Part shown: positions 11,750 through 60,060 of the stretch, one piece after another | Numbering within the stretch: position 1 is the stretch's first letter | How the letters are laid out: the number at the start of each line of letters is the position of its first letter | Source of the DNA: Mesostigma viride | Taxonomy: Eukaryota > Streptophyta > Mesostigmatophyceae > Mesostigmatales > Mesostigmataceae | Assembly: GCA_009746045.1 (NCBI GenBank) | Contig: RPFO01002154.1 | Coordinates: 46,001 to 110,000, forward strand | Length of the DNA stretch: 64,000 bases | Direction of reading: 5' to 3' | Notes under the pieces: generated by a model | What the model saw: only the letters and a program-made list of their open reading frames with translations | The model's database searches: none | What the model was told of the DNA's origin: nothing | Program-made: the position numbers and the translations under genes

Positions 11750-13145
11750 GTCCGCCGTCTACCGAGGAGTCTGCATCCAGAGCGCCGCACTCAAGTTGTT
11801 CATGCGCATGATCCTCAACCGCCTTCGTTCTGCTCTCGACTGTCACCTAGGGGAAAGTCAAATGGGCTTTCGTCCTGGGCGCAACACCGTCATGGCCATC
11901 TTCGTCGCGCGTCGCCTCTTTGAGGAAATCGCTCTCCTGCAACCTGGTGAGTTTCCCGCCATCCTGATCTTCGACGACTTCATCAAGGCTTTTGATTCTG
12001 TCCTCTGGGACGCTCTATGGGCTGTACTTGCTCGCGCTCGCGTCACCACTCCCCTGATTACCGTCATCCGCACGCTGTATGAGGGGTCGACCACTTCGGT
12101 GCGCACTCAACACGGCATTACCCCGCCATGCCCACTGCAGACCGGCGTCTGGCAGGGTTGCGTCCTGTCGCCGTACCTGTTTATTATTGTCGTGGATTAT
12201 GTGATGCATCAGGCACGTGCTCGCTTTGCTAGCATTGCAGGCCGTGCCCCTGGCCTAGCGATCACGAACGAGCTTGGAGAAGGGGGGCCGACTAACAAGC
12301 AGAATTTACTAGCTGACCTCATTTATGCCGACGACATCACGCTCATCGATGAAGCCGGAGTCTGCCCAACTTTGGCTGGACTGCCTGGCGCTCGAGGCTC
12401 GGGCGGTTGGTCTAGAAATCATGCAGCCCCAAAACGGAGGCCCTGGCCCTCGGCATGGCAGGGCCCCCACCCACACTCCGCCTCTTAGACGACACCGAGG
12501 TCAACTACCCTACTTCAGGCCGCTTCCAGCTGCTCGGCAGTTGGCTTCCCGACTGCGAGGACGACATGACGACACGGATCGGCATGGCGTGGGCACACCT
12601 CCATGACCACCGCCGCTGGTGGAGCAACCCCGCCCTACCCCGGATCGTCAAGCGTGACCTCTTCAAGGTCGTCATTCTGACGATCCTGACCTACGGCGCC
12701 GAGACCTGGACACTGACGCAGGAGCTGGAGCAACGACTCGACTGCGCCGTCACCAAGATGCTGCGCAAGGCCCTTAACATCCCCTTTGGTTTGCACATTA
12801 GTAATGAGGATTTGTACGCTGATTTGCCCTATGTTTCCCACATTATTAGCCGGCACAGGCGCCTGGGCCTAGCCGGGCACCTGGCCCGCACAGATCAGGT
12901 AGATACATCAGATAGACTAGCTGGCACCAAGCCTGCCCAGCCTGGGCGATATGTCCTCACCTGGCGTGCCCCCAGCCGCGCACATGGGTCTTATTGCACC
13001 CACAGAACTTGCCGGATCGTCTATCCTGTCCGATTGCAGCTGTGGCATGCCTCTGGCATGAAGGAGAAAGGGGGTCTAGAGCTGCCCTTTCTTCCTGTTG
13101 TGCACACTTCGGTGCTTCGTGACTCCCCAACGGGAGCACGAGTTT
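11750..13145 (+). pseudogene. LINE family A copy 1: reverse transcriptase ORF2, 5'-truncated and frameshifted
   Basis: Starts inside the RT domain (VYRG...SAALKLF) and runs through DFIKAFDSV, a GVWQGCVLSPYLF block and the catalytic YADD box (about 12325). It loses frame near 12355 (QLWLDCLALEARAVGLE continues in a second frame) and again near 12430-12455, then continues as LLGSWLPD, LTYGAETWTL and the GHLARTDQVDT tail. At least two frameshifts make it non-functional. It ends at 13145 with a 3' hairpin (13123-13136) followed by a TTAA-like then CCCT tail. A typical LINE ORF2 also has an endonuclease upstream; that part is missing here. The non-LTR clade cannot be set from this fragment. Confidence 0.85.
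13123..13136 (+). other. LINE 3'-terminal hairpin, copy 1
   Basis: CTCCC-CAAC-GGGAG: 5-bp stem and CAAC loop, directly before the CCCT array. Same element as at 13555, 32959, 40234, 47865, 58783 and 60023, and reversed at 39064 and 46661. Confidence 0.75.
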
Positions 13146-13150
13146 AATTA

Positions 13151-13529
13151 ATGAATCCCTCCCTCCCTCCCTCCCTCCCTCCCTCCCTCCCTCCCTCCCT
13201 CCCTCCCCTCCCTCCCTCCCTCCCTCCCTCCCTCCTCCCTCCCTCCCTCCCTCCCTCCCTCCCTCCCTCCCTCCCTCCCTCCCTCCCTCCCTCCCTCCCT
13301 CCCTCCCTCCCTCCCTCCCTCCCTCCCTCCCTCCCTCCCTCCCTCCCTCCCTCCCTCCCTCCCTCCCTCCCTCCTCCCTCCCTCCCTCCCTCCCTCCCTC
13401 CCTCCCTCCCTCCCTCCCTCCCTCCCTCCCTCCCTCCCTCCCTCCCTCCCTCCCTCCCTCCCTCCCTCCCTCCCTCCCTCCCTCCCTCCCTCCCTCCCTC
13501 CCTCCCTCCCTCCCTCCCTCCCTCCCTCC
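13151..13529. repeat. (CCCT)n array
   Basis: About 95 CCCT units with a few one-base losses, starting ten bases after a LINE 3' end and ending at a second, partial LINE 3' end (ATCGGGGTTAATGCTC, 13530-13570). Confidence 0.95.
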
Positions 13530-13554
13530 ATCGATCGGGGTTAATGCTCAGTGA

Positions 13555-13568
13555 CTCCCCACCGGGAG
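13555..13568 (+). other. LINE 3'-terminal hairpin, copy 2
   Basis: CTCCC-CACC-GGGAG. It lies between the CCCT array and the GAAT/GAAA array, so this LINE end also abuts a tetranucleotide array. Confidence 0.7.
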
Positions 13569-13576
13569 CATGAGTT

Positions 13577-14440
13577 AAATGAATGAAAGAAGGAAAGAAG
13601 GAAAGAATGAAAGAAAGAAAGAAGGAAAGAATGAAAGAAAGAAAGAAAGAAAGAAAGAATGAATGAATGAATGAATGAATGAAGGAAAGAATGAAAGAAA
13701 GAAAGAAGGAAAGAATGAAAGAAAGAAAGAAAGAAAGAAAGAATGAATGAATGAATGAATGAATGAATGAATGAATGAATGAATGAATGAATGAATGAAT
13801 GAATGAATGAATGAATGAATGAATGAATGAATGAATGAATGGGTGGGTGGGTGGGTGGGTGGGTGGGTGGGTGGGTGGGTGGGTGGGTGGGTGGGTGGGT
13901 GGGTGGGTGGGTGGGTGGGTGGGTGGGTGGGTGGGTGGGTGGGTGGGTGGGTGGGTGGGTGGGTGGGTGGGTGGGTGGGTGGGTGGGTGGGTGGGTGGGT
14001 GGGTGGGTGGGTGGGTGGGTGGGTGGGTGGGTGGGTGGGTGGGTGGGTGGGTGGGTGGGTGGGTGGGTGGGTGGGTGGGTGGGTGGGTGGGTGGGTGGGT
14101 GGGTGGGTGGGTGGGTGGGTGGGTGGGTGGGTGGGTGGGTGGGTGGATGGATGGATGGATGGATGGATGGATGGATGAATGCATGAATGAATGAATGAAT
14201 GAATGAATGAATGAATGAATGAATGAATGAATGAATGAATGAATGAATGAATGAATGAATGAATGAATGAATGAATGAATGAATGAATGAATGAATGAAT
14301 GAATGAATGAATGAATGAATGAATGAATGAATGAATGAATGAATGAATGAATGAATGAATGAATGAATGAATGAATGAATGAATGAATGAATGAATGAAT
14401 GAATGAATGAATGAATGAATGAATTGATTGATTGATTGAT
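13577..14440. repeat. compound tetranucleotide array GAAA/GAAT - GGGT - GGAT - GAAT - GATT
   Basis: GAAA/GAAT mixture (13577-13740), GAAT (13741-13840), about 76 GGGT units (13841-14145), eight GGAT, then about 62 GAAT (14178-14423) and GATT. Neighbouring units differ by only one or two bases and the 4-bp register is kept. GAAT flanks the GGGT block on both sides. The GGGT block is a strong G-quadruplex candidate on the plus strand. Confidence 0.95.
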
Positions 14441-14590
14441 TAATGCACTGGGCGGGTTCCACCAGGGAAAGCTTTTCAACGGATAGAAAATTCAGCGCAG
14501 CCTGGCGCAGCCCCTACCATCAACATTGTCAGCATGTACTTAGCAGCACTCCATCGGACCACCCTGGAGCAACCTTGAGATCCCGGTCCG

Positions 14591-16486: not shown

Positions 16487-17536
16487 TGTGCCAACTCGCA
16501 ATTCGCAAGGCCGCTACTATGCGGCTGATAATTTAATATGGCCTATTGAACACGGCTTTAAGAGAACGCTTTTCACCGAATCCAGGCTCTTATGAGAGCC
16601 AAGGAAAAATTGAAGGTGTCTTTGACACGTCTTAACCAATGCTAACGGTGACGGGCCAATGGCATCAATAAAATACCGTGGGTTAGCGATATTCTTGCAC
16701 GGACTGAGATACCACCTCCTAGAAACTACGTAAGTAACCCTTTCACCCCCACTCTTTGAATCACGCCAGCCGGAGGGGTTGGTCAAGTTTCTAGTCTTCC
16801 TGGCCTTGGAAGTTGGAACGTCCCAGCGTTTCCAACCTTCTTTTCTACAGCGTCCATACGCCAATGTTATTTAATGGAAATAACAATCAGTTATTCATCA
16901 ACCTTCCAATTATCAATAGGAATTAGGAACGGAATCCCTTAATTCTTTCATTATTGGAGGGCGACATGCTATATGGACGGCGAAATGCTTCGCAATTCCC
17001 AAATCCTGGCCTCGCACCCCATGTCGCACCGCCCTTTTCCCCGAGTAAAATCCTGTGTAATGAACTCTATTATCCCTACATTATCCCATCGGGCATCCTG
17101 TTATATATTATATATCATAAAAGTTTAAGTTTACGAACGATGTCCATAAAGTTCACTGCCCGTTTTTCCAGGTAAATAGGTGTACGTTTATTCCAAATAT
17201 AGCCAGTAGGTAATCCCTGCTAAGTTCACTGCCCGTTTTCCGCCTGTTGACGACAAGTTAAGATACGATATCCGCCCGGTCCGTGAGATCCTTAGCGACT
17301 AAGCAGTTGCGCTAGGGGAGGGTAGACGCCTTCATGAACATTCCATGGCCAGAAACTAGGAAGTCAGAAAAAGGCTTGAGGGATGGCCGGATGGGCTGTC
17401 AGCATCATTTTCTTCAGAAGAAAACGTGCACAAGGGTCGTTCACGCATTACACGCGGCGATGGCCGCTACCTCTATCTCTAGTGTACGTGAGTGCTATTG
17501 TTCACCAGCCGTGGCATTTCCCCAAGTGTAGGCATC
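16487..17536. promoter_or_regulatory. divergent intergenic region, 1.05 kb
   Basis: AT-rich spacer between the starts of the F-box/LRR gene (-) and the sialidase-like gene (+). It must hold the promoters of both; no certain TATA box or operator was identified. A roughly 60-bp piece at 17169-17227 recurs inverted at 46369-46428. Confidence 0.4.
17169..17227 (-). repeat. dispersed repeat, inverted copy of 46369-46428
   Basis: Reverse complement of 46369-46428 with almost no differences; the core is GGTAAATAGGTGTACGTTTA. It is too short to classify. Confidence 0.7.
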
Positions 17537-26271: not shown

Positions 26272-26317
<46 letters not shown>

Positions 26318-28203: not shown

Positions 28204-28346
28204 GCGACAGTATGATGGCGAGCCGTTTGCTCGCATCAGGGCTGTGCGGCTTATTCTAGAGAGAAGCGACATCAAGCAGATTTTGCTGCCAGATGTGAGG
28301 GAGGGGCCCTGCTGGGGTGGGAATAAACTGCTGTGAGTGACCGATC

Positions 28347-29118
28347 CCCTCCCTCCCTCCCTCCCTCCCTCCCTCCCTCCCTCCTCCCTCCCTCCCTCCC
28401 TCCCTCCCTCCCTCCCTCCCTCCTCCCTCCCTCCCTCCCTCCCTCCCTCCCTCCCTCCCTCCCTCCCTCCCTCCCTCCCTCCCTCCCTCCCTCCCTCCCT
28501 CCTCCTCCCTCCCTCCCTCCCTCCCTCCCTCCCTCCCTCCCTCCCTCCCTCCCTCCCTCCCTCCCTCCCTCCCTCCCTCCCTCCCTCCCTCCCTCCTCCC
28601 TCCCTCCCTCCCTCCTCCCTCCCTCCCTCCCTCCCTCCCTCCCTCCCTCCCTCCCTCCCTCCCTCCCTCCCTCCCTCCCTCCCTCCTCCCTCCCTCCCTC
28701 CCTCCCTCCCTCCTCCCTCCCTCCCTCCTCCCTCCCTCCCTCCCTCCCTCCCTCCCTCCCTCCCTCCCTCCCTCCCTCCCTCCCTCCCTCCTCCCTCCCT
28801 CCCTCCCTCCCTCCCTCCCTCCTCCCTCCCTCCCTCCCTCCCTCCCTCCCTCCCTCCCTCCCTCCCTCCCCTCCCTCCCTCCCTCCCTCCCTCCTCCCTC
28901 CCTCCTCCCTCCCTCCCTCCCTCCCTCCCTCCCTCCCTCCCTCCTCCCCCTCCCTCCCTCCCTCCCTCCCTCCCTCCTCCCTCCCTCCCTCCCTCCCTCC
29001 CTCCCTCCTCCCTCCCTCCCTCCCTCCCTCCCTCCCTCCCTCCCTCCCTCCCTCCCTCCCTCCCTCCCTCCCTCCCTCCCTCCCTCCCTCCCTCCCTCCC
29101 TCCCTCCCTCCCTCCCTC
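28347..29118. repeat. (CCCT)n array with CCT interruptions
   Basis: About 190 units. CCT three-base interruptions are scattered and keep all frames open, producing false Leu/Pro/Ser and Glu/Gly/Arg proteins. No LINE hairpin is visible at its left edge. Confidence 0.95.
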
Positions 29119-29477
29119 GTGAACTCACTCGTGGACTCACTCACTCACTCACTCACTCACTCACCCACCCACCCACCCACCCACCCACCCACCCACCCAC
29201 CCACCCACCCACCCACCCACCCACCCACCCACCCACCCACCCACCCACCCACCCACCCACCCACCCACCCACCCACCCACCCACCCACCCACCCACCCAC
29301 CCACCCACCCACCCACCCACCCACCCACCCACCCACCCACCCACCCACCCACCCACCCACCCACCCACCCACCCACCCACCCACCACCCACCCACCCACC
29401 CACCCACCCACCCACCCACCCACCACTCACGCACGCACGCACGCACGCACGCACGCACTCACGCACGCACGCACACA

Positions 29478-29561
<84 letters not shown>

Positions 29562-30044
29562 CTCACGCACTCACGCACTCACGCACTCACGCACTCACGC
29601 ACTCACGCACTCACGCACTCACGCACTCACGCACTCACGCACTCACGCACTCACGCACTCACGCACCCACGCACTCACGCACCCACGCACCCACGCACCC
29701 ACCCACGCACCCACCCAGGCACCCACCAGGCACCCACCCACCCACCCACCCACCCACCCACCCACCCACCCACCCACCCACCCACCCACCCACCCACCCA
29801 CCCACCCACCCACCCACCCACCCACCCACCCACCCACCCACCCACCCACCCACCCACCCACCCACCCACCCACCCACCCACCCACCCGCTCACCCACCCA
29901 CCCACCCACCCACCCACCCACCCACCCACTCACTCACTCACTCACTCACTCACTCACTCACTCACTCACTCACTCACTCACTCACTCACTCACTCACTCA
30001 CTCACTCACTCACTCACTCACTCACTCACTCACTCACTCACTCA
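29119..30044. repeat. compound array CTCA - CCCA - CGCA - CGCACTCA - CCCA - CTCA
   Basis: CTCA (29135-29160), CCCA (29161-29424), CGCA (about 29430-29560), the 8-bp CGCACTCA dimer (about 29560-29690), CCCA (about 29735-29928), CTCA (29929-30044). The order is roughly mirror-symmetric and steps are single-base changes in a preserved 4-bp register. The CCCA blocks can form G-quadruplexes on the minus strand. Confidence 0.95.
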
Positions 30045-31504: not shown

Positions 31505-31606
31505 TTCATGGCGATTCGGGCCGCGTTGCCCACACCCCTGGAACTATGACCTAGATAGCTTACACCATCCATTCCATCCCATGTTCCCCTCCCACTGAGG
31601 CCTTAT
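31505..31606 (+). mobile_element. SINE-like element, copy 2 (incomplete)
   Basis: Matches the 145-bp insertion at 48206-48350 from ATTCATGGCGATTCGGGCC to CACTGAGGCCTTAT. It lacks the CACGTGAC palindrome and TTAA tail; instead it joins a different shared block at 31605. Confidence 0.6.
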
Positions 31607-31705
31607 CAAGGAGACAACCAGCGCAGGCCAGAAATCGGGAGAATCCGGATCATGGTAGCTCGAGCCTGCCGTTATCTGCTCCGCGTGTTCGAGTCGTTCA
31701 GGATG
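31605..31705 (+). repeat. dispersed ~100-bp repeat also at 56443-56550
   Basis: Starts with the 13-mer ATCAAGGAGACAA and continues CCAGCGCAGGC, AGAAATCGGGAGAATCCGG and a GGTAGCTCGAGCCTGCCG block, ending where LINE B coding sequence starts. Nearly identical to 56443-56550. A truncated form is near 10832-10852. Confidence 0.7.
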
Positions 31706-32460
31706 ATGGCTTATGCTCACTACTGGCGCTCCAAGGGCCTGGACGAGCACCGCAAGCGCATGCTCTTCAAGGTCCTCGTCCTCACGGTGCTCACGTATGG
31801 CGCCGAGGCGTGGACACTCACGGCAACATGGGCAGCTAAGCTAGACGGCACGGTAACCAGGATGCTCCGACAGGTCCTGAATGTAGGGTTTTCTCAGCGT
31901 AGGTCATTACAGTCTTTGTATCACGGTATGCCTCGTATTTTGCACGAGATTAGGCAGCGTAGGAGTATTTCGGACGAGATTAGGCAGTGTAGGATAGCAT
32001 TTGTAGGACATCTTGCTCGCACCAGCCAGGTCGACACCGCCCTTGGTCTGGCCGGTCCCCAGCGGCTCGGCCAACCAGGGCGGCATATTTTGACTTGGCC
32101 TGGCCCCAAGAACATTCCTAAAAGGGTAGGGAAACATGCCATGACCTATACCCAGATGTTGCTGGCCGACCTAGTGGTCCCAGCCCAGTTTGAATACCGC
32201 ATGCCCTCTCTCTCCCTTCTTTGGACTGCCATGCAGGACAAGAAGCGGTGGCAGAAGATTGTCAAGGCTCACACGCCAGCCCCTGTGGGCAAGCCGCCTC
32301 CCCCCAAGAGGAGGAGCCGTTTTGATGAGTAGCGTCTACAGATAGGCAGTTCTCTAGACTAGATAGCTTAGAGTTAGGTTAGTTCGATTACGCGGCTTCC
32401 TCCGCACTAGATCCACCCATCCATCCTGGAATATGTGCTACATGATCTCCCAACGGAGGC
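31706..32460 (+). mobile_element. LINE family B, 3' part of ORF2 and 3' end (copy 1)
   Basis: An open frame to 32332 encodes the C-terminal part of a LINE ORF2 protein: WRSKGL, MLFKVLVLTVLTYGAEAWTL, MLRQVLNVGF, a GHLARTSQVDT block and a basic end. The RT catalytic core is absent (5' truncation). A 12-residue EIRQ segment is duplicated near 31950-31990. The 3' end carries a hairpin (CTCC-CAAC-GGAG, 32447-32458) and is directly followed by a LINE A fragment. Confidence 0.8.
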
Positions 32461-32464
32461 ATGC

Positions 32465-32989
32465 AGCGGTACCTGCATGCAGCTAGTAGGGCACCTAGCT
32501 GGCACCAACCAGGTAGACACCTCACGCGGCCCCCCCGCAGGACTGCGACCAGCTCAGCCTGGCCGGCACCTCCTGACGTGGGCCGGGCCCCGTGATGTTA
32601 GACGCCGCAAGGCCCGCACCTTCAAAGAACAGCTAGTAGAGGACATGGGGGGCCTCGGCATCTCCGTGATTTGGAAGGAGACTGATGATGGACAAGGCCA
32701 AGTGGGCCCAGCTTGGTCATAGAAGACAACGAGCCCCCCCCCTGTGGGGAAGCGCGCCCGCGTGTGCAAACCAGCAGGAGGCACGCCAGACAGCTCGATC
32801 CCCTAGGGCAGCGTGATGCTGCTTAGTAGGTAGATGTTGTACTTAGTTAGTGATGCTGTTAGATAGATGTTGTAGGTCGCTGATGTAGATAGCTTAGACC
32901 GGTAGGACTGTTTGCACCCGGCCATCCATCCATCCATCGGGGTTATAATGCTCCGTGACTCCCCAACGGGATCGAGCACGACTTATAAT

Positions 32990-32990
<1 letters not shown>
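32465..32990 (+). mobile_element. LINE family A 3' fragment (copy 2)
   Basis: Matches the end of the 57217-58815 copy: a GHLAGTNQVDTS-type block, KARTFKEQLVEDMGGLG and VGKRARV, with an insertion near 32680-32720 that breaks the frame. CCATCCATCC and the terminal hairpin (32959-32972, GGGAT on the right arm) follow, then the TAAG array. Confidence 0.8.
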
Positions 32991-33742
<752 letters not shown>

Positions 33743-33984: not shown

Positions 33985-34497
33985 TATGACGAGCAAACGC
34001 TCTTCGACGCAACGCCGGCCTGGCGGCTGCGCTCGGCAATGAAAAAACGTCTGCAGCTCCGGCTGCAGCTTCGCCAAACGGCCCAGAAGGCAGCGGCGCC
34101 ACTAGCCAAGCTCTAGTGGTCGTCCAGCCCCCTGCTGAGCCCGCCTCGCCAGCAGCGTCGCCTGAACCCAAGCGCAGTCGCCCTGCCGAGCCGAGCTGGG
34201 TCGAGCTCGAATTTGTAGCCGAAGCCCGCCAGCCCGACTTCTTTGACGAGTTTACCGAGACACGCATCCTGCCCTGCGTGTTTTTTGGATCGCACGCCTC
34301 GCTTAGATTGAACTGTGTGCACAAGCAGCTCTTCATCCAAGGTCGCCTCTTTGATCCTTACCAGAGGCGCGCCTCCACTTTCGACCCCTTTCGGACCAGC
34401 CTCCGCCGCCCCCACCTCCAGCAATTCGCTCTCTTTTCCCTCCTTGGATGCTCCATCGAGGAGCTTTGGCCCCCCAAGCCCCTTACCACCACCTTAA
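33985..34497 (+). pseudogene. LINE ORF1, N-terminal part (split by transposon)
   Basis: Ala/Pro-rich stretch followed by a folded-looking part (FFDEFTETRILPCVFFGS, LFIQGRLFDP) similar to the start of the ORF1 at 58900-59947 (FFGDYASL, GRLLCTDGRRW). The frame runs into the transposon's TTAA. Removing the transposon and one TTAA restores the frame into 37987. Confidence 0.75.
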
Positions 34498-37982: not shown

Positions 37983-37986
37983 TTAA

Positions 37987-39032: not shown

Positions 39033-39963
39033 TAAAAATTAAATTAAATTAAATTATAACATGCCTCCGTGGGGAGGTCATGTAGCACATATTCCATGAT
39101 GGATGGGGTGGAGGAAGCCGCGTGATCGAACTATACTCTAGTCTCTAAGCTATCTAGAAAATCCAAACTACACTACTCATCAAAACGCCTCCTCCGCTTG
39201 GGGGGAGGTGGCTTGCCCACAGGGTCGGGCGTCACTGTGCGCCTTGACAATCTTCTTCCACCGCGTCTTGTCCTGCATGACAGTCCAAAGACGGGAGAGA
39301 GAGTGGATGCGGTGCTCAAACTGGGCTGGGACCACTAGGTCGTCCAGCAACATCTGAACGTAGTTCGTGACAGGTTTCCCAACCCGTTTGGGAATGTCCG
39401 CGGGGCCATGCCAGGTCAGAATGTGCCGCCCTGGCTGGCCAAGCCGCTGGGGGCCGGCCAGACCGAGGGTGGTGTCGACCTGGCTGGTGCGGGCAAGGTG
39501 TCCTACAAATGCTATCCTACGCTGCCTAATCTCGTCCAAAACACGAGGCATGCCATGATACAAAGACTCTGATGACGGACGCTCGGAAAAACCTACGTTA
39601 AGGACCTGTCGGAGCATCCTGAAAACCGTGCCGTCTAGCCTAGCTGCCAGTTTGGGTGGGAGGGTCCACGCCTCGGCGCCATACGTGAGCACCGTGAGGA
39701 CGAGGACCTTGAAGAGCATGCGCTTGCGGTGCCCGCCCAGGCCCTTCGAGCGCCAGTAGGGTGTGAGCGAACGGAGCTTGGCCCAGGCAAGGCCGATGCG
39801 GGTGTCCACATCGTCGGCGGTGTCAGGAAGCCAGCTCCCCAACAGCTTGAAGCGGTCGCGGAACGGGACCTCCGTCCCATCGAGCAGGCGCGGCAGCGGT
39901 GGTTTACTGGAGGCCCCAATCACCATCGCCTCGGTTTTGACACTAATCTCCAACCCCACCGAT
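39033..39963 (-). mobile_element. LINE family B 3' fragment (copy 2), inserted with 11-bp duplication
   Basis: Flanked by direct repeats CTCCAGATGAT (39022-39032 and 39964-39974). In its own sense it starts within ORF2, stays open to 39180 (LLDGTEVPFRDRFKLLGSWL, LTYGAEAWTL, GHLARTSQVDTT), and ends with hairpin CCTCC-CCAC-GGAGG (39064-39077) and an ATTTA-type tail (39033-39055). The empty site is at about 47590-47605. 5' truncation plus target duplication is typical of target-primed reverse transcription. Confidence 0.88.
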
Positions 39964-40250
39964 CTCCAGATGATGCCTAGCTTTATTATAGCTGTGCCCA
40001 TGCAGAGAGCTGCTCTCTGCTGAGATGCCACGCTGTAGCTTTGTATAGCTATGATGATCTTCCCCCCCATGACAGGCTCCCCTGAGCTGGGCAGAGCTTG
40101 ATAGATCATGGGGCTGCAGGTGCCCTGGTGCACCTAGAGCAAGGGTCGTTTACATTCCCACCCTTGCAGGAAGTAGCTTAGAATGTATTATAGGCCATAT
40201 ATGCCCCTTCTCTGGGCTATATGTGCTACAGATACTCCCAACGGAGTTAT

Positions 40251-40918
<668 letters not shown>

Positions 40919-40921
40919 AAA

Positions 40922-42850
40922 GGGGACTCGGCGCGGCGAATATTTTCCGCGCCAAACAAATTCTGCGGTACCCTCGATCCACGTACCGTGAAAAGTGGGT
41001 GCACGGTGCGCGCACCCCTTGCGGAAGTGGCCATGGCGACTGCTTTTAGACGAAACGTGACAAATCTGGCTCGCGGAAAGCAGAAAAAATGCTCGATTGT
41101 AATTGGAGAAAATTAGTTACTGATTCTACTTTATGGTGGGATGGTTGCGATCCATAATGTCGTGGGCTTTTTTTCTTTACCATCGGCAGGGGGGGTCCGG
41201 CCTGAATTTCTATCGGGATGAATAAAGCATAATGGATGCCTGCCCGTGTGATTGTCGATTGTTGCCAGTTCTGATGGTCGTAAGGGAAGCTAGTTTAATG
41301 ATGTTTCTAAAGCCGTGAAAATTCCCGCTGCTATCTTTACCTTTCCCGTCATTTTGCGGTAAGATAACATTAGGCCTGCGCGATGCGCGCCCGACCTCTC
41401 CATGAAAGGGTGGCCTTTCTTGTGCTCCTGGGCACGAATAAATGCCCGTTATGGTACGTTCTTGTATTAAACGTCTTAAGCTAGCGTTTTCCTGCTTTCT
41501 TAGCTCGTTGAGCGTAAGCTTTTCGCCTTCTTTCCGGCCAGATGCAGCCATGAAGTTGCGGGTCCTGGCGCCGCATATCGCTAGATTCCTGGATGTTTTT
41601 TAGCAAGTTCGTCTGTGACGTGGCTGGCTTGCTGCAGCGCGTGGCCCACAACCTGTCAGGAAGGTGTAATGCTTTTATTTCCATGCTTCTCTGAAATATT
41701 TCTTTTGCTTTATAGACAGTTGTGTTCGAGGAAATTCACGCGGTCTTCCTAAGCAGCGGCATCATTTTCCCCAGCTAGACACTGACGAGCTGGCACCTGT
41801 CTCCTAAAGAAAGTGGCTCGTGCTTGTTAGAAAGGAGGCAGTGTGCATTTTGCGGGACACAATGCTTTGGTGGCACATGCGTCAGGTAGGTTGTTCCAAT
41901 GGTCAATTCACCTTTCCCACTGAGTAAATGATAGCCTTTGTCATGCTAACCAGAGCAGCTAGCCACAGGTTGGCTCTAGATAAAAAGTCAGCTTATTTTC
42001 TCTTTATATACTGCGTGTGTGTTCCTCCACATGTCCGGCTTGTAATTGGGCATTTTGGAAGATGGTTTTTAATGTGTTGTTGGGTGGAACAGCTTGGTTG
42101 TTGGCACAAAATCACACATTATTAGCCTGAGATAGGCATGACATATGCTGCTCAGGCGTATCGTCCTACCAGCCTTGTTGATAAGGGTAGACTCACAAGG
42201 CTGGCTGTGCCGATGGAGGGGTGGGGCGTATAACGCTCCGGACATCCTCCTCACACTCCGTGATCAAAGTGGGCATGTTTTTGGGTGTCTAGGGTAGCAA
42301 AACAGATGTCATTTTGGCTCAGCACTATCTCAATTCTCTTTTAGCGTCTACCCAGGTGGCATCACAGGAAAATCAATAACTTGAGCTACGCTTGTCAGAA
42401 TGAGCTCAAACTTTGGGGTTGTGTTTCCCCCCACTCAGTGGAATATCGCATGTATGGATGACCCAATCTGATGTGTTAATGATTTGATTTTTTTTTTTTT
42501 GCTCAAAAAAGTACCCATTTTGCGGGAAAATTAATAACTCAAACAAATGTGACCATTTTGGCCATGTAAATAGCCCAGCTTTTAAAAAAGTGGGGGAACT
42601 TTGCAGAAATGTATGGGCAGGTCATTTGGATAAGTGGTTTGTCTTGGGCAAAATATCTCATAAATAGCGTCTTTTTCTATTTTTAGCTCGCCACCGGTGC
42701 GTGGTTGGGGGTAGTACCCCCAACAAGTGGTGGCATGAATGTCCAAACATCATATTTATGGTACTCAATCATCACTAGATGGTTCCCGAGTGCATTGGAA
42801 CTGATATTCATTTAAGTCAGTTTTTCAGGCTTTTGGACGTGCGAGTCCCC
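40922..42850. mobile_element. 1.9-kb TTAA element, copy 1
   Basis: Ends GGGGACTCGGCGCGGCGAAT...CGTGCGAGTCCCC. The right flank is TTAA; the left flank reads ATAA/A, so the duplication is imperfect there. Its right 0.5 kb and left termini match the 3.5-kb transposon, while the middle does not. A minus-strand frame (41210-41551, MAASGRKEGEKLTLNELRKQ) and a 61-codon frame (42069-42254) are kept in copy 2, but the copies are so alike that this does not prove coding. Probably non-autonomous. Confidence 0.82.
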
Positions 42851-42854
42851 TTAA

Positions 42855-43008
42855 TAGCCACCGACCCTTATAAACAACCGGGTCATCCAAGGAAAATTCG
42901 GGCGAACAGGAAACCCTTTGTACAGATCGAATCAGTCAGCCCATGTCGCAGACAGCCTTCCACATCCAGGCCAAGGCCTAGCGGCCCTATCTTTCCCGCA
43001 TGCGTTGA
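42855..43008. other. short spacer between transposon and RING/TRAF gene
   Basis: 154 bp between the 1.9-kb element and the stop codon. It must contain the 3' UTR; no poly(A) signal was recognised. Confidence 0.35.
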
Positions 43009-45854: not shown

Positions 45855-46135
45855 CAATCAGGACTTGGGGCTCGGGACCTCTAATGAGAATTGATCATTG
45901 ATAATAATGACTATGTACAGTCATTCCCGTGTTAAGTTACGATCGCCGCCAAATATGGGCGTCGTAACTTAAAGAGTTAACGTAACTGAACAGTAGAATT
46001 AGGCTAGCAGCCCACGCCCTCCTATGACGGACTTCAAGCACCTATTCGGCATTCGACCCCTCTCGTCAAGCCCGATTCAGCTGCAGCATCAAGGGCGCTC
46101 AAAGTACGGGGTTTCGTACCATTTTCTGGTCACAG
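45855..46135 (+). repeat. 280-bp dispersed repeat with conserved hairpin, copy 1
   Basis: Matches 62157-62437. It contains TTAAGTTACGA...TCGTAACTTAA (about 45932-45972), a long hairpin extended by CGCC/GGCG, and ends AAAGTACGGGG...GTACCATTT. Immediately followed by a TAAG array. Possibly a non-autonomous mobile element; no target duplication was recognised. Confidence 0.75.
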
Positions 46136-46137
46136 TC

Positions 46138-46306
<169 letters not shown>

Positions 46307-46368
46307 TAAGTGCGTGGTCTAGTAAGGCTCCGTTTTAGTAGCCACCGACTGACATCTTGATACCCTAG

Positions 46369-46428: not shown

Positions 46429-46625
46429 ATAAGTGCGTGAACATGCACTGAAGGCCGGCATGCCACGGAGTACCCGAGGAGGTATACTTTTCTACGCGGA
46501 TACTTCACCCGCGAAAGCAAGTGGCGCAACTCACTCGCACCCAGGTCTGGAGTCGCAGATAGCAACTCCGCATCATCCGGACTATCCAAGACGACTGTAC
46601 GCTCGGCAATTATGACGGGTGTATA

Positions 46626-46720
46626 TTAATTAATTAATTAATTAATTAATTAGACTCGTGCTCCCGTTGGGGAGTCACGGAGCATTAACCCCGATGCCGG
46701 GATGGATGGATGGGTGCAAA
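46626..46720 (-). mobile_element. LINE A 3' end, reversed
   Basis: TTAA tail (46626-46652), GACTCGTG, hairpin CTCCC-GTTG-GGGAG (46661-46674), then GATGGATGGATGGGTGCAAAC, the mirror of the end at 58690-58815. Confidence 0.75.
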
Positions 46721-46764
46721 CATTCCTACCGGTCTAATGGCTATCTACATTCAGTGGCTACATA

Positions 46765-47488
46765 CTACATCTCGTCGATCTTAAGGACAACGCCATCGCT
46801 ATCGAGGTTCTGCAGAACACCGCAGGCCTCACCGCCCAGGCGGTGAAGGACATTGCCGCAAAGCCAGCCCCGGCTGGCCTCAGTGGCCGGCGATGCTCCT
46901 CCCATCACCACCTGGGCGGACATGCTTAAGCAACATACCACCTCCACCACCTCCGCCGTCGCAGCCCAGCTTCAACGGCAGACGCTTGACCTCCGCGAGG
47001 AGGCCGAGCTCGCCAAGCGCAGCCTCAACGTCATTGTCAAGAACTTCAAGATGGAGGAAGGTGAGAATTCCGAGAAGCTTTTGCGTGCGTTTGAGAGAGA
47101 AATCCTTAGTCGCATGGGCCTTAACGGTGAGATAGAGCTGGCTGCCCACCGCCTTCCCCGCGCGCGGGGTAAGGCAGGGCCGCCCCCGCTCCTCCTCACC
47201 TTTAAGACCCCGGCGGACAAGATTTCTTTTCTCAGACGCCGCAAGCGGCTCGAGAAGACTCTCTTCACCCTTGATGACGACCTGACCCTGGCGCAGCAAC
47301 AACGGCGACGGGAGCTATGGCCGACCTACCTCCAGCTCCGGCAGACCAAGGCGGGGCAGCCGGTGTACTGGAAGGGGGCGGCCATCTACGTCGGCCACAA
47401 GCCCTGGCAGGCGACCCCCCCCCCCCGCGGCCCCAGCGACTCCAGACGCCCCAGCTTAGGGGAATACAGCAGTAGTAGTGCAGAATAG
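46765..47488 (+). mobile_element. LINE ORF1 of ORF1-only element (copy 2), 5'-truncated
   Basis: ORF1-type protein. Starts mid-coil (LKDNAIAIEVLQNTAGLTAQ), has a frameshift near 46885, then is open to the TAG at 47488: coiled-coil (LQRQTLDLREEAELAKRS), an RRM-like segment (PPLLLTFKTPADKISFLR) and a C-terminal domain with RRRELWPTYLQLRQ. This order matches L1-type ORF1p, an RNA-binding trimeric chaperone. The next 400 bp carry no RT. Confidence 0.82.
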
Positions 47489-47895
47489 ATAGACCGTGGC
47501 CATGTACATGTACGCCTCCTAGAGGCACTATCCCAGCTAAGCCCCGCGCTTTATTTAATCATGTACATGTGTGCCTATGATGTGCCACACTCCAGACGAT
47601 GCATAGCCTTATTTAGTAATGTTGTGCCCATGCAGGGAGTCACTCTCTGCTGAGAAGCCATGCCATAGCTCTTGTATAGCCATGATGATCTTCCCCCTCA
47701 CAGGCATGCTCCCCCCTTACCCGGGCATAGCGTGATAGACCATGAGGGTGCGGGTGCCCTGGTGCACCTAGAGCAAGTGTTGTTTACATTCCCACCCTTG
47801 CAGGAAGTAGCTTAGAATGTATTATAGGCCCATATGCCCCTTCTCAGGGCTATGTGCTACATATACTCCCAACGGAGTTATGTTCCTAATTAATT
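47489..47895 (+). mobile_element. 3' UTR and tail of ORF1-only element (copy 2)
   Basis: Same sequence as 38894-39032 joined to 39975-40258. Includes the uninterrupted site ACTCCAGACGATGCATAGCC, and ends in hairpin ACTCC-CAAC-GGAGT (47865-47878), GTTCC and a TTAA tail (to about 47908). The copy at 40258 has a TAAG tail at the same point, so the tail sequence differs between copies. Confidence 0.85.
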
Positions 47896-47924
47896 AATTA
47901 ATTAATACTACATCTATCTAACAA

Positions 47925-48420: not shown

Positions 48421-48429
48421 TAGTAACAA

Positions 48430-53759: not shown

Positions 53760-54338
53760 TGTTTTGGCTTTTGTGAGCTACGTACAAACAGGCATGTTTA
53801 TTGCATAGAAAACTGCGTTGCACAAGGTAATACTATTTGCCTTGAAAGTCAAATTAGTCAATCACTGGAAATTCCGTGACCCGCACCGGTGAATGCTCAG
53901 GACCACGGTATTATTACTACGGTAATTATGTCGATGGCAAAACAGGCAGCACATTGCAAGGGGCAGGGAGCTATGGATTTCCCGCCAAATATTTCGTTAG
54001 GCAGGCAGAATTAGGCCCATTTTGCTCATGCCACTCCCACATTCCGAGCTTGCCATGCCCGGCCGGCCACGATGTCTTGCCGGCGGGCATCGCGCCGGGA
54101 AGCTACAGTAGCGCGACTGGTCAAGAAGGCATCACGCGATGGGCGCCGCGACCGTGCAGATGTGACATGACCTACCTATTACTTGTCTCACGTAGTAATT
54201 TGACTCCAGCAAAAAGCTCAAACAATTCAGTGGTTCAACGGTGCCGGTTCAATCCGCTATGACGCTCATTAATTACGGCTGAATTAATTAATTAATTAAT
54301 TAATGAAGTAAGTAATTCAGTAACGAGCACGAGTCTAA
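53760..54338. promoter_or_regulatory. upstream region of the Mis18-like gene
   Basis: Upstream sequence expected to hold the promoter; no defined motif claimed. TTAATT repeats (54277-54303) and a LINE A tail remnant (GAGCACGAGTCTAA, about 54325-54338) sit at its right end, where a TTAA transposon inserted. Confidence 0.35.
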
Positions 54339-54342
54339 TTAA

Positions 54343-56249
54343 GGGGACTCGGCGCGGCGAATTTTTTCCGCGCCAAAAAAATTCCGCGGTACCCTCCGTA
54401 CCGTGAAAAGTGGGTGCACGGTGCGCGCACCCCTTGCGGAAGTGGCCATGGCGACTGCTTTTAGACGAAACGTGACAAATCTGGCTCGCGGAAAGCAGAA
54501 AAAATGCTCGATTGTTGGAGAAAATTAGTTACTGATTCTACTTTATGGTGGGATGGTTGCGATCTATAATGTCGTGGGCTTTTTTTCTTTACCATCGGCA
54601 GGGGGGGTCCGGCCTGAATTTCTGTCGGGATGAATAAAGTATAATGGATGCCTGCAGGTGTGATTGTCGATTGTTGCCAGTTTTGATGGTCCTAATGGAA
54701 GCTAGTTTAATGATGTTTCTAAAGCCGTAAAAATTCCCGCTGCTATCCTTACCTTTCCCGTCATTTTGCGGTAAGATAACATTAGGCCTGCGCGATGCGC
54801 GCCCGACCTCTCCATGAAAGGGTGGCCTTTCTTGTGCGCCTGGGCACGAATAAATGCCCGTTATGGTACGTTCTTGTATTAAACGTCCTAAGATAGCGCT
54901 TTCCTGCTTTCTTAGCTCGTTGAGCGTAAGCTTTTTGCCTTCTTTCCGGCCAGATGCAGCCATGAACTTGCGGGTCCTGGCGCTGCATCGCTAGATTCCT
55001 GGATGTTTTTTAGCAAGTTCGTCTGTGACGTGGCTGGCTTGCTGCAGCGCGTGGCCCACAACCTGTCGGGAAGGTGTAATGCTTTTATTTACATGCTTCT
55101 CTGAAATTTCTTTTGCTTTATAGACAGTTGTGTTCGAGGAAATTCACGCGGTCTTCCTAAGCAGCGGCATCATTTTCCCCAGACACTGACGAGCTGGCAC
55201 CTGTCTCCTAAAGAAAGTGGCTCGTCCTTGTTAGAAAGGAGGCAGTGTGCATTTTGCGGGACACAATGCTTTGGTGGCACATGCGTCAGGTAGGTTGTTC
55301 CAATGGTCTCTTCACCTTTCCCACTGAGTAAATGATAGCCTTTGTCATGCTAACCAGAGCAGCTAGCCACAGGTTGGCTGGATAAAAAGTCAGCTTATTT
55401 TCTCTTTATATACTGCATGTGTGGTCCTCCACATGTCCGGCTTGTTGGGCATTTTGGAACAGGGTTTTTAATGTGTTGTTGGGTGGAACAACTTGGTTGT
55501 TGGCACAAAATCGCACATTATTAGCCTGAGATAGGCATGACATATGCTGCTCAGGCGTGTCGTCCTACCAGCCTTGTTGATAAGGGTAGACTCACAAGGC
55601 TGGCTGTGCCGATGGAGGGGTGGGGCGTATGACGCTCCGGACATCCTCCTCACACTCCGTGATCAAAGTGGGCATGTTTTTGGGTGTCTAGGGTAGCAAA
55701 ACAGATGTCATTTTGGCTCAGCACTAGCTCAATTCTCTTTTAGCGTCTACCCAGGTGGCATCACAGGAAAATCAATAACTTGAGCTACGCTTGTCAGAAT
55801 GAGCTCAAATTTTGGCAGTGTGTTTCCCCCCACTCAGTGGAATTTAAAATGTATGGATGACCCAATCTGATGTGTTAATGATTTGATTTATTTTTTTTTG
55901 CTAAAAAAAGTACCCATTTTGCGGGAAAATTAATAACTCAAACAAATGTGACCATTTTGGCCATGTAAATAGCCCAGCTTTTAAAAAAGTGGGGGAACTT
56001 TGCAGAAATGTATGGGCAGGTCATTTAGACAAGTGGTTTGTCTTGGGCAAAATATCTCATAAATAGCGTCTTTTTCTATTTTTAGCTCGCCACCGGTGCG
56101 TGGTTGGGGGTAGTACCCCCAACAAGTGGTGGTATGAATGTCCAAACATCATATTTATGGTACCCAATCATCACTAGATGGTTCCCATGTGCATTGGAAC
56201 TGATACTCACTAAAGTCTGTTTTTCAGGCTTTTGGACGTGCGAGTCCCC
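54343..56249. mobile_element. 1.9-kb TTAA element, copy 2
   Basis: Ends GGGGACTCGGCGCGGCG...CGAGTCCCC, flanked by TTAA at 54339-54342 and 56250-56253. Mostly identical to 40922-42850 with small indels. The left flank is the end of a LINE A tail and the right flank is another TTAA tail, so it sits within TTAA repeats. Minus frames 54589-54963 and 55468-55653 correspond to those in copy 1. Confidence 0.87.
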
Positions 56250-56400
56250 TTAATTAATTAATTAATTAATTAATTAATTAATTAATTAATTCAGTAAACT
56301 CGTGCTCCCGTTGGGCAGTCACGGAGCACCGAATGAGTGCTTTTAATCCCTGTGTGTGAACAACGGGAAGGATGAATGGATGGGTACACGCAATCCTACC
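56250..56400 (-). mobile_element. LINE A 3' end, reversed, with TTAA tail
   Basis: TTAA tail (56250-56291), then CTCGTG and hairpin CTCCC-GTTG-GGCAG (56305-56318, one mismatch), CACGGAGC, and GGATGGGTACACGCAATCC like other LINE A ends. Confidence 0.7.
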
Positions 56401-56442
56401 GGTCTAATCTATCTACAAAAACAAGCCAACTCTATGATATCT

Positions 56443-57216
56443 ATCAAGGAGACAACCAGCGCAGGCAAGAAATCGGGAGAATCCGGACCATGCATGGTAG
56501 CTCGAGCCTGCCGTTATCTTGTCAGCGTGTTCGAGTCGTTCAGGCTGATGAATATGAATGGTGATGGAAATGTGTGCCTCTACCCTAGGGGTCCTCTATG
56601 GTGCCCTCTACCCTAGGGCCCCTCTACCCTAGACGGTCTTGTCTAGTAGCATGCTTCCTGCGTTTGCAAATGACACGCGGGCGCGGCTTCCCTAAGGGAG
56701 GGGGGTCGTTGTCCTCTATGACCGGCTGGGCCCACGTTTGGCCTTGTCCGGCTATCATCTTGTTCCATGAATCACGGAGAGGCCTAGCCCCCCCATGTCC
56801 TCTACGGCTAGCTGTTCTTTGAAAGTGCGGGCCTTGCGGCGTCTAGCATTGCTCGGGCTGGCCCGCATGTCTATCGGGAGGTGCCGTCCTGGCTAGCTGA
56901 GCTGCCGGTCGCAGCCGCCCTGCAGGGGGGCCACGTGATGTGTCTACCTGGTTGGTGCGAGAGCTCCAAGTGCCCTACTAGCTACCAGGGCACCTGCACC
57001 CTCATAATCCTCACACTATGCCCAGCTAAGGGGGAGTATGTTATGTGGGGGAAGATCATCATGGCTATACAAGAGCTAGGACATGGCTTCTCGACAGAGA
57101 GCATCTCTCTGCATGGCATAGCATGGCTAAATTCTTAATGCGACATCCATGGGGGTACCATTATAGGCAGGGCGTGGCTGAATGCTAAAGGCATCATCCA
57201 TGGGGGCCATCCCCCC
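56443..57216. mobile_element. mosaic of LINE fragments
   Basis: 56443-56550 repeats 31605-31705. 56660-56985 is a degraded reverse LINE A C-terminal end (reverse of 58310-58560). 56985-57125 is reverse 3' UTR of the ORF1-only element (compare 47630-47770). A short tandem TCTACCCTAGGG... lies at 56575-56635. Confidence 0.6.
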
Positions 57217-58815
57217 ATGCTTCTTATGCGGCTCATCCTGAACCGCCTGCGCACGGCCCTGGACGGTCACCTCAGCGAGACTCAGCACGGCTTCCGTTCA
57301 GGTCGCAACACAGTACAGGCGCTCTTCGCTACTCGCCGACTGGTGGAGGAACTGCAACGCCTTCAGCCTGGTGAGTCCCCTTTGCACCTTGTGCTGGTGG
57401 ACTTCATCAAAGCCTTCGATTCGGTTTTCTGGCCTGCGCTTTGCATGGGACATCCTCGAGTTGTTCCGGATCCCCCGCCCCCTGATTGCTGTCATCCGCA
57501 ACCTGTATACAGGGTCCACCACTTCGGTGCGCACTTCTTACGGGACCACGCCCCCATGCCCTTTACAGAAGGGTGTGTGGCAGGGCTGCGTGCTGTCGCC
57601 CTACCTGTTCATTATTGTTGTCGAATACGTAATGATTCAGGCGCGCAAGCGATTTGCCCGCATCGTGGGCAGGGCACCAGGAGTGCAGGTTGCTAACAAA
57701 TTCTGGCATGGCGGTGCGGACACGGAGATTCGGCTAGCAGACATCATTTACGCAGACGACACCACCCTCTTCGAGGACACTGAGCACGTGCAGACATGGC
57801 TTGACTGCCTGGCTCTCGAGGCCCGTGCAGTGGGGCTTGAGGTCAGCAAGAAGACAGAGGCCCTGGCGGTTGGGCTCACCCACTCAGCGCCGCCCCTCTA
57901 TCTCCTAGACGGCTCTCGAGTCCCGTATCGGGACCGCGTCAAGCTGCTGGGCAGCCTGCTCCCTAGCTGCGAGGTTGATGTGAACCCTCGCATCTCTCTC
58001 GCCTGGCAGGCTTTACGTCGTCAGTACCGGGCCCTGTGGCGCAAGCCCCTGGGCAAGATCGAGAAACAGGACCTGTTCAAGGTCCTCGTCCTTCCTGTTC
58101 TCACGTATGGCGCCGAGACGTGGACCCTCACCGCCGACCTGGCCCGCAAGCTGGACGGCGCGGTCACCAGCATGCTGCGTTCCATTTTCAGAGTAGGATA
58201 TGCTGCTCATGTCCGCAATGAGGACCTGTACCATGGCATGCCCTATATCACCAGCACCATTAAGCAACGCCGCCTGCAGCTAGTAGGGCACCTAGCTCGC
58301 ACCAACCAGGTAGACACCTCACGTGGCCCCCCCCGCGCAGGACTGCGACCAGCCCAGCCTGGCCGGCACCTCCTGACGTGGGCTGGGCCCAGTGATGTTA
58401 GACGCCGCAAGGCCCGCACCTTCAAAGAACAGCTAGTAGAGGACATGGGGGGCCTAGGCCTCTCCGTGATTTGGAAGAAGATGATGGACAAGGCCAAGTG
58501 GGCCCAGGTCATAGAGGACAACGAGCCCCCCCCAGTGGGGAAGCGCCCGCGTGTGCAATCCCGCGGGAGGCACGCCAGATAGCTCCCCCTAGGGCAGCGT
58601 GCGGCTGCCTAGATAGATGTTGTAGTTAGAATGCTGTTAGATAGATGTAGTCTGTAGCCAATGTAGATAGATTAGACCGGTAGGAATGTTTGCACCCATC
58701 CATCCATCCATCCATCCATCCATCCATCCATCCATCCATCCATCCATCCATCCATCCATCCATCGGGGTTACTGCTCCGTGACTCCCCAACGGGAGCACG
58801 AGTCTAATTAATTAA
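57217..58815 (+). mobile_element. LINE family A copy 3: reverse transcriptase ORF2 with one frameshift, and 3' end
   Basis: Best-preserved LINE A. Starts in RT (ILNRLRTALDGHLSETQHGF), reaches DFIKAFDSVFW, then a one-base frameshift near 57440; the second frame is open to the TAG at 58582 with GVWQGCVLSPYLF, the catalytic YADD (about 57757), LLGSLLPS, LTYGAETWTL, a GHLARTNQVDTS block and a basic tail. The 3' UTR holds a CATC array (58697-58763), hairpin CTCCC-CAAC-GGGAG (58783-58796) and a TTAA tail. The endonuclease half is absent (5' truncation). RT activity in a full copy is inferred from the family; this copy is broken. Confidence 0.87.
58783..58796 (+). other. LINE A 3'-terminal hairpin, reference copy
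   Basis: CTCCC-CAAC-GGGAG inside GCTCCGTGA...GCACGAGTCTAATTAA, followed by four TTAA-type units. Confidence 0.75.
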
Positions 58816-58899
58816 TTAATGGGGGCCATTATGGGCGCACATGCGCAGGGGCCACATGCTAGGCTAAGCCTTACTAATCTACACTACTGGTATATATTC

Positions 58900-59947
58900 C
58901 TAGTCTGAGGTGGCAGGAGGGGGCTGCCAGGGCTTGTGGTCAACGTGGATGACCGCCCCCCTCCAGTATACCGGCTTCCCCCTTGCGCTCTGCCGGAGCT
59001 GAAGGTAGGTCGGCCATAGCTCGCGTCGCCGCTGTTGCTGGGCCAGGGTCAAGTCGTCGTCCAGCGTGAAGCGAGTCTCCGAGAGCTTCTTGCGGCATTT
59101 AAGGAACGCCAGCTTGTCCGCCATGTACTTAAAGGTGAGGAGCACGGGTGCCGGGCCAGCCTTCCCCCGCGCGCGGGGGAGGCGGACAGCCGACATGTCC
59201 AGCTCACCAGTAAGTAACATGGGGGCAAGAATGGCGCGCTTAAATGCCTCAAGAAGGCTCGTGGAGGTCTCACCTGCCTGCTGGTCGAAGTGCTTGACGA
59301 TGACATTGTGGCTGCGCCGGGCGATGTCGGCTTCCTCGCGAAGGTCGAGAGCTTGTTGCTTGAGTTGTGCCGAGATGGTGGAGGTGGTGGAGGTCGTGTG
59401 CTGCTTAAGCAAGTCCGCCCAGGTGGAGGGAGCATCGCCGGCCAGGCCAGCAGGCGCCGGCTGGGCGGCGATGTCCTTCACCGCCTGGGCGGTGAGGCCG
59501 GCGGTGTCATGCAAGCTCTCAAGGGCGTTGGCGGTGGCTTGAAGGCGTTGGTCGATGTCGAGGAGCTGGGCTTTGATGTCGGCAGTGGAGGCGGATCTGG
59601 CAGTGGAGGTGGAGGCGGCGGCGGTGGAAATGTGAGGAAGTTCAGCAGTCAGCGTGCCACCCATTGCTGCGACGTCGGCAGCAAGGGGGGTCACGTGCTG
59701 CTGAAAGGCTTCCATGAGGATGGAACGGAGGGTGGGGGCGGAGATGGATGGAGCCCAGATCTCGCCGTCAGAGCGCTGGAGAAGGGAGTTGAGGATGGCA
59801 TGCTGGAGAACGGGGCGGGGGGAGCCGAAAACCATGCTGACGTTGTGCCAGCGACGGCCGTCGGTGCAGAGGAGGCGTCCGGTGGCATGGAGATGGATGC
59901 ACAAGTCGTAAAGCGAGGCGTAGTCCCCAAAGAAGTTCAGTCATTAG
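58900..59947 (-). mobile_element. LINE ORF1, second family, open frame
   Basis: A frame of about 348 codons from about 59945 to the stop at 58900. N-terminal part FFGDYASLYDL...GRLLCTDGRRW, a coiled coil with STADIKAQLLDIDQRLQ, an RRM-like PAPVLLTFKYMADKLAFLK, and the conserved DLTLAQQQRRRELWPTYLQLRQ and KPVYWRGAVIHVDHKPWQ. Homologous to 46765-47488 and to 33985-38893 but clearly diverged. The left side is cut at a TTAA tail and the right side at LINE A end sequence, so it is a fragment in reverse. The long intact frame suggests a fairly recent copy. ORF1p binds RNA and helps target-primed reverse transcription. Confidence 0.82.
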
Positions 59948-59984
59948 ATCTAGATATAGAATAGTTCTAACAAGCAGAATTGTT

Positions 59985-60060
59985 TGACCATCCATCCATC
60001 CATTGGGGTGAATACTCCATGACTCCCCAACGGGAGCACGTGTTTAATTAATTAATTAAA
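59985..60060 (+). mobile_element. LINE A 3' end with TTAA tail
   Basis: CCATCCATCCATTGGGGTG, hairpin CTCCC-CAAC-GGGAG (60023-60036), ACGTGTTTAATTAATTAATT. Confidence 0.7.

Follow-up and report, generated by a model that had tools for sequence, protein, structure and literature searches.

Conserved 3' hairpins at the ends of related LINE families in Mesostigma viride, and tandem tails that probably feed one class of microsatellite

Stringent-type LINEs (long interspersed elements) such as UnaL2, ZfL2-1, ZfL2-2 and SART1 are described as carrying a stem-loop at the very 3' end, with a consensus stem of 8-10 bp that is interrupted, 4-6 bp from the loop, by a bulge or an asymmetric internal loop (PMC5135761; PMC4176376). 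Tandem tails are reported for some of them, e.g. UnaL2 (PMC3747384), and RTE LINEs of Lepidoptera have been described as generating microsatellite families (Tay et al. 2010, PMC2887409). Here we analyzed a 64-kb stretch of the genome of Mesostigma viride (Streptophyta; GenBank assembly GCA_009746045.1, contig RPFO01002154.1, positions 46,001 to 110,000 of the forward strand), hereafter the window, together with the host genome, which we searched as 440 Mb in 2,243 contigs. A first-pass annotation of the window had noted a hairpin that recurs before short tandem repeats. We find that these hairpins are very probably the 3' recognition ends of related LINE families, termed A, B, C, D, G, T and U, which prime on short tandem tails that in turn feed microsatellites. 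LINE tails are a source of one microsatellite kind in this genome and apparently not of another.

We built a covariance model from 31 distinct hairpin forms, drawn from 82 copies, and searched the window with cmsearch, filters off. Training rows had to have the core CCCAACGG (at most one change), a motif upstream and a tail-like repeat downstream. Most of the loop letters and the two closing pairs are set by the core, and the motif spans the 5' arm of the outer stem; the other pairs played no part in the choice. The search returned 13 matches with an expectation value (E) of at most 1. Twelve of these, at E<0.01, are the sites that the first-pass annotation had listed, all of them present at or adjoining its coordinates; the thirteenth lies at 40194 (E=0.63). 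Nine of the twelve forms belong to the training set, and those at 13546, 32437 and 11682 lie outside it yet were recovered (E=7.8e-4, 3.8e-8 and 3.3e-3). The hairpin of families A, B, C, D and G is composed of a 5-bp inner stem with a 4-nucleotide (nt) loop, one unpaired base on the 5' side and a 4-bp outer stem. The stem thus has 9 bp rather than the 4-6 bp first described, and 5 bp separate its bulge from the loop. The loop, described as mostly CAAC-like, is indeed CAAC or CCAC in 30 of 31 forms, the core having been used in choosing the rows, and site 32447 lacks the short tandem tail said to follow directly.

The 21-mer CTCCCCAACGGGAGCACGAGT of families A and B has 6,276 copies in the genome, and the degenerate 24-mer ACATRWNCTCCCMACGGAGNYATG of families C, D and G has 10,364; the reversed controls have none. 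In random DNA (20 stretches of 3 kb, 60 kb in all) the model finds three strong matches and one weak one, compared with which, small as this sample is, 12 hairpins per 64 kb is rich. The hairpin sites are thus confirmed, at a copy number far beyond chance. Single ends of A, B, C, D and G fold better than their shuffles (z -2.9 to -4.2). Family B ends (e.g. L026; L numbers denote loci) have a second small hairpin, AGCAC-UUCG-GUGCU, directly before the terminal one. There is no match to Rfam in the window at the gathering score, and no match to the exact 21-mer in viral contigs, a search from which records of the window's own genome were possibly excluded. A keyword search of titles and abstracts, which could miss existing descriptions, found no account of this hairpin and its tails.

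The first-pass claim that the stem bases differ while pairing is kept agrees well with the 31 forms. Of their 279 cells, 94.3% are paired; shuffling of the 3' letters lowers this to 80.2%, and sliding of the partner to 32-51%. Both sides have changed in 60 cells (21.5 shuffled), and the covariation score is 0.530 (0.253 shuffled); none of 500 shuffles is as high for any of these three measures. The outermost inner pair is seen as CG, AU, GC, UA, UG and GU. When this pair was left free in a genome scan, 84 of the first 100 listed copies were paired there, compared with 47.7 expected if the two sides were independent. The next pair outward, restricted to purine-pyrimidine by the pattern, is paired in 99 of the same copies versus 77. 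These comparisons support a 3' terminal stem-loop that has been kept through compensatory change.

Reverse transcriptase (RT)-coding remains lie upstream of the hairpins in families A, B and D in the window, and in family T. A family A copy in L159 contains an open reading frame (ORF) of 1,032 amino acids with RVT_1 (E=1.1e-25) and Exo_endo_phos (E=5.1e-7) in the same frame, the endonuclease being of the APE type. The family A piece of the window matches copies in seven loci at 95.9-97.5% identity, over lengths of 400-1,500 nt, and L099 at 89%. Matches of the RT in the PDB leave its clade undecided (reverse transcriptase-like protein, 1.1e-12; L1 ORF2, 6.8e-12; R2, 6.7e-11); these LINEs may be RTE-like. 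Frame stop and hairpin lie about 190 nt apart in family A (from 58582 to 58774), and 93 and 104 nt apart in two copies of D, in frames that are broken and whose true stops are uncertain. Tails differ by family, being TTAA or TAAT in A, B, C and G, CAATT in some C copies, TAATT in D and TACT in T and U. The copies are truncated from the 5' side, down to insertions of the hairpin only. Target-site duplications (TSDs) of at least 11 nt were found in 18 of 68 rows, not all of which are true ends or independent copies, and in none of 68 control rows. Five of the 18 (L011, two in L012, L026 at 2321 and L035 at 1463 on the minus strand) were judged to be artefacts of neighboring hairpins or repeat tracts, leaving 13. 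L022 and L037 consist of hairpin and tail and little more, between 14-nt and 13-nt duplications. Since such copies contain almost nothing else between their TSDs, the hairpin must have stood at the end of the reverse-transcribed RNA. Covariation, the place after RT-coding sequence, 5' truncation and TSDs together support the earlier proposal that the hairpin marks a LINE-type 3' end. ARAGORN found no transfer RNA in the window and 30 loci, and thus no SINE (short interspersed element) headed by one.

By analogy with known elements (PMC4176376; PMC5135761; PMC3747384), the LINE protein would recognize the hairpin RNA, target-primed reverse transcription would start at the tail, and slippage would then lengthen the tail. 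We examined this link to microsatellites on (TAAG)n arrays, taking from the first 100 listed of 206 (TAAG)8 starts the first 60 in list order, one per cluster, and reading 360 nt upstream of each; some of the 60 are interior to longer arrays. A same-strand hairpin lies at most 80 nt upstream in six of them (L062, L064, L066, L075, L087 and L089), or in seven when L110 is measured to the outer array start. The expected number of such contacts is 0.14 if random DNA has 3.5 matches in 60 kb, and 0.35 at a rate of 8.8, which we take as an upper value. Partial hairpins precede L061 and L103, a same-strand hairpin stands farther off in L107, and opposite-strand hairpins adjoin the array in L059 and lie farther off in L063.

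The far sides of the arrays account for many more of them. We picked 20 arrays by eye that start abruptly and have no same-strand A-G hairpin directly upstream, and found a LINE 3' end on the far side of every one, 18 of family T and two of its relative U, all on the opposite strand. Of the element, L168 retains just the last 8 nt and L172 about the last 20. These far sides reversed a view we had held, that TAAG arrays without an upstream hairpin are unrelated to LINEs. Among the nine hairpin-linked arrays (the seven above, L061 and L103), four have T or U on the far side; these are L184, L185, L188 and L181, the last with a same-strand T copy between the array and an opposite-strand T end. 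Overall, T or U ends are present at 24 of 29 far sides, a (TACT)n tail being a TAAG array when read on the opposite strand. Most TAAG arrays whose far side was read are thus opposite-strand (TACT)n tails of T and U, as shown in this sample.

The T end folds as CGUG-G-CAUGC-loop-GCAUG-A-CACG, with a 6-nt loop and a 1x1 internal loop. It shares the outer stem of family A and has a different inner stem and loop, in a very similar architecture, and the C-terminal region of its RT (L178) is 48.5% identical to that of family A. The genome holds 1,862 matches to the T end (control 0); 2,022 T ends have at least two tail units, and 154 have at least eight uninterrupted units. At 154 of the 384 genome-wide (TACT)8 boundaries, the terminal 13 nt of T stand immediately before the array without a mismatch, and it follows that at least 40% of these boundaries, which include interior interruptions, are T tails. 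TSDs of 9-10 nt, counted from the first base after the tail, are seen in 6 of 20 T/U copies (five T, one U) and in 1 of 20 controls, and in these six the array sits between the element end and the TSD. In L168, the 9-nt duplications enclose about 11 tail units and 8 nt of element, or at most 14 nt if bases that also belong to the TSD are counted.

Arrays of TCCC behave differently. From 876 (TCCC)8 starts we took the first 40 listed, one per cluster, and found a hairpin in none of their 5' flanks (model, E<0.01), in none of 11 far (3') sides (E<=0.1), and no T or U end at these loci by fuzzy search. An origin of TCCC arrays from hairpin-marked tails is therefore unsupported. On the opposite strand, the arrays of L123 and L124 enter a TTAA-tailed C-type LINE end at its final bases, as if truncated within the hairpin. 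In L157 the internal (CATC)n tract of family A passes into a TCCC array; this tract, part of the family A 3' untranslated region (UTR), varies in length and may seed arrays too. Five of the 40 arrays (L127, L134, L138, L140 and L145) are preceded by one dispersed repeat that ends AGTCATGCCT after a (CGCA)n tract. The earlier claim that large arrays grew from LINE tails is therefore supported for the TAAG sample, mainly through another family on the opposite strand, and not for TCCC; likewise, the comparison of array-hairpin contacts with chance gives an excess for TAAG and no contact for TCCC.

Besides ordinary genes, the window itself contains LINE remains, a Mutator-like transposase and numerous tandem repeats (58 rows). 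The features that concern the hairpins and arrays are as follows.

9796..9828 (+): LINE family T 3' end hairpin with short tail TACTTTATTAG; one mismatch to the T 3' end; absent from the first-pass list
11682..11715 (-): 3' hairpin, divergent, larger loop, then TTAA tail; model E=3.3e-3; form outside training set
11745..12488 (+): family B reverse transcriptase remains; PF00078 E=2.1e-20
13114..13143 (+): family B 3' hairpin, tail TTAATTAATGAAT; model E=1.9e-9
13144..13529 (+): short TTAA-type tail passing into (TCCC)n array; origin unsettled
13546..13575 (+): 3' hairpin, family A form, loop CACC; model E=7.8e-4; form outside training set
13573..14441 (+): compound (AATG)/(TGGG)/(ATGG)/(ATGA) array; origin unsettled
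31559..32332 (+): LINE RT C-terminal region, family D type; 51.6% identity to family A ORF2 over 122 positions
32437..32466 (+): family D 3' hairpin, without tandem tail; model E=3.8e-8; form outside training set
32950..32979 (+): family A 3' hairpin, 3' arm weakened; model E=1.7e-6
32986..33742 (+): (TAAG)n array, TTAA units intermixed at start
39057..39086 (-): family D 3' hairpin (CCTCC/GGAGG, loop CCAC), tail (ATTTA)n; model E=6.7e-10
39180..40133 (-): LINE RT C-terminal region, family D type; 54.9% identity to family A ORF2 over 184 positions
40225..40254 (+): family C 3' hairpin (ACTCC/GGAGT); model E=1.9e-8
40252..40917 (+): (TAAG)n array, in phase from its start with the usual TAAT tail (cf. 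the one following 47885)
46654..46683 (-): family A 3' hairpin, TTAA tail; model E=3.5e-10
47856..47885 (+): family C 3' hairpin, TAAT tail; model E=8.8e-10
56298..56327 (-): family B 3' hairpin, one mismatch, TTAA tail; model E=4.5e-9
57181..58363 (+): family A reverse transcriptase remains; RVT_1; 88.5-94.4% identity to the L159 ORF
58693..58764 (+): (CCAT)n tract within family A 3' UTR, upstream of hairpin
58774..58803 (+): family A 3' hairpin, TAAT tail; model E=3.5e-10
60014..60043 (+): family A type 3' hairpin, TTAA tail; model E=5.3e-9

Period-4 array blocks of at least 100 bp number six in the window (9 rows). Four start at most 30 bp from a hairpin, and the blocks 28342-30044 and 46133-46302 do not start within 30 bp of one. 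Hairpins stand before the TAAG arrays at 32986 and 40252, neither of which has a T or U end on its far side; the mixed units of the former and the exact tail register of the latter favor tail change and expansion without proving it, and an origin of the four hairpin-adjoining arrays from LINE tails is unproven.

Other features of the window stand apart from these. An element of about 2 kb, ending TTAA...GGGGACTCG, is present in two 95% identical copies (40864-42855 and 54282-56254) and one partial copy (34494-34996), in or beside LINE TTAA/TAAG tails, as if TTAA were its target. A Mutator-like transposase is encoded at 35550-37121 (-) (PF20700, E=2.5e-24). Two long minisatellites occupy 8168-9259 (9-bp unit TGCTGATGG, 121 copies) and 10192-10702 (10-bp unit CTCAGCGTAG, 51 copies). 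The coding fragments at 46847-47488 (+) and 58900-59940 (-) are related to each other and are putatively LINE ORF1-like; neither has a Pfam match, and 46847-47488 has no match in the PDB.

Several observations weigh against hairpins kept by compensatory change and arrays fed by their tails. Pairs with a double change (5 versus 4.1 shuffled) and extra pair types (14 versus 13.2) are not above the shuffles, and among the 100 listed copies the free pair is unpaired in 16, as T-T in 14 of these. The covariation comes from few deep lineages, about four (A/B, C, D and G), and the tests leave shared descent in; A can moreover be aligned to C as the gain of one C-G pair, which leaves fewer separate compensatory changes. 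The conserved loop, the closing pairs and the 5' arm of the outer stem are partly a product of the row choice. The fold of the T end surpasses shuffles by a small margin (z -2.2 to -1.5), and we saw no covariation within the family T stem. On the side of the arrays, 1 of the 30 first-listed exact A/B ends has a tandem tract of at least 100 bp within 30 nt 3' of it (none of the 30 has one ending within 60 nt 5'), and 5 of 29 far sides are without a T or U end (L180, L182, L183, L186 and L187). Of these, L187 has an opposite-strand A/B end on its far side and L180 a D-type hairpin nearby.

It could be that contact between A-D hairpins and arrays is mostly a target effect, in which (TTAA)n-tailed LINEs insert into tandem arrays that already exist and have not grown from their tails; we rate the chance of this at slightly below even. 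At least one contact is of this kind. In L075, (TAAG)n units both precede and follow a truncated family B end, with a T end on the far side, and this copy is an insertion into an existing array. In L103 the 3' arm of a hairpin stands alone between TAAG blocks, and the four hairpin-linked arrays with T or U on the far side likewise favor this view. However, the array that follows the hairpin at 40225 begins in the TAAT register with no TAAT unit left, TTAA units are mixed with TAAG units at 32986, and the A end of L064 has a far side without T or U (L182). The arrays after A-D hairpins may have arisen by tail change and expansion in places and by insertion into an existing tail array elsewhere. 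A more specific version, which we regard as doubtful, is that families A-G with (TTAA)n tails insert preferentially into the (TACT)n tail arrays of T and U, tails and elements building each other. If true, it could explain the approximately 17-50-fold excess (by background rate) of A-D and G hairpins at TAAG arrays, and the array on both sides of the element in L075.

That the arrays are ordinary microsatellites, which hairpins touch by chance in a repeat-rich genome, is improbable. The TCCC flanks and the single long tract after the listed A/B hairpins would fit such a view, but the TAAG class speaks against it, with a hairpin near six or seven of 60 arrays where a fraction of one is expected, and with T or U ends at most far sides; for the TCCC and AATG/TGGG arrays the view may still apply. 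We consider it more improbable still that the hairpin acts at the DNA level or as a transcription terminator and not as an RNA recognition signal. Its GC-rich stem, followed by T/A-rich repeats, would suit a terminator, but stems that vary with pairing kept, a loop that is nearly constant even allowing for the use of the core in choosing rows, and hairpin-only copies between TSDs all speak against this, and the last place it at the end of the reverse-transcribed RNA. We therefore favor 3' recognition ends of LINE families whose tails feed microsatellites. One microsatellite class is traced in this way to a generator of a known kind, and the TCCC results suggest that another class in the same genome needs a different explanation. 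Thousands of natural copies with one architecture and varied stems and tails, all in a single genome, also form a test set for how LINEs recognize their RNA ends.

We compared these ends to the described systems. They resemble the stringent-type LINEs as published in their 9-bp stem, in the bulge 5 bp from the loop, for which T has a 1x1 internal loop, and in their 3' terminal position. They differ in the loop, which has 4 nt in A, B, C, D and G and 6 nt in T (published consensus, 5-7 nt), and in that several families with different stems share one genome. The 5-7 nt loop is a descriptive feature of the consensus, and we know of no requirement for it. The monocot L1 group LINE1-1_ZM with its partners ZmSINE2/3 is reported to have a conserved 3' hairpin with compensatory stem changes and a conserved loop and 3' flank (Ohshima 2013, PMC3747384). 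Its loop and flank letters are different from those found here, and in our families the tails are tandem repeats of 4-5 nt and a SINE partner was not found. Among green algal LINEs (L1, RandI and RTEX), non-poly(A) tandem tails such as (CCAT)n, (TAA)n and (ATT)n are listed, but TTAA, TACT, TAATT and CAATT are not among the tails named in that passage (Ohshima Table 3, PMC3747384). The direct precedent for a link between LINE tails and microsatellites is the lepidopteran RTE (PMC2887409), which is described as encoding Exo/Endo/Phosphatase and RT domains and as leaving many partial 3' copies, with 6-12 bp TSDs that enclose simple repeats at the 3' end; slippage was proposed for these repeats. 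The main text on it makes no mention of a stem-loop, hairpin or secondary structure, and its 3' UTR is extremely short (PMC2887409), whereas the families reported here have an apparent 3' UTR of about 90-190 nt and repeat units of 4-5 nt. These families are probably stringent-type LINEs that seed microsatellites.

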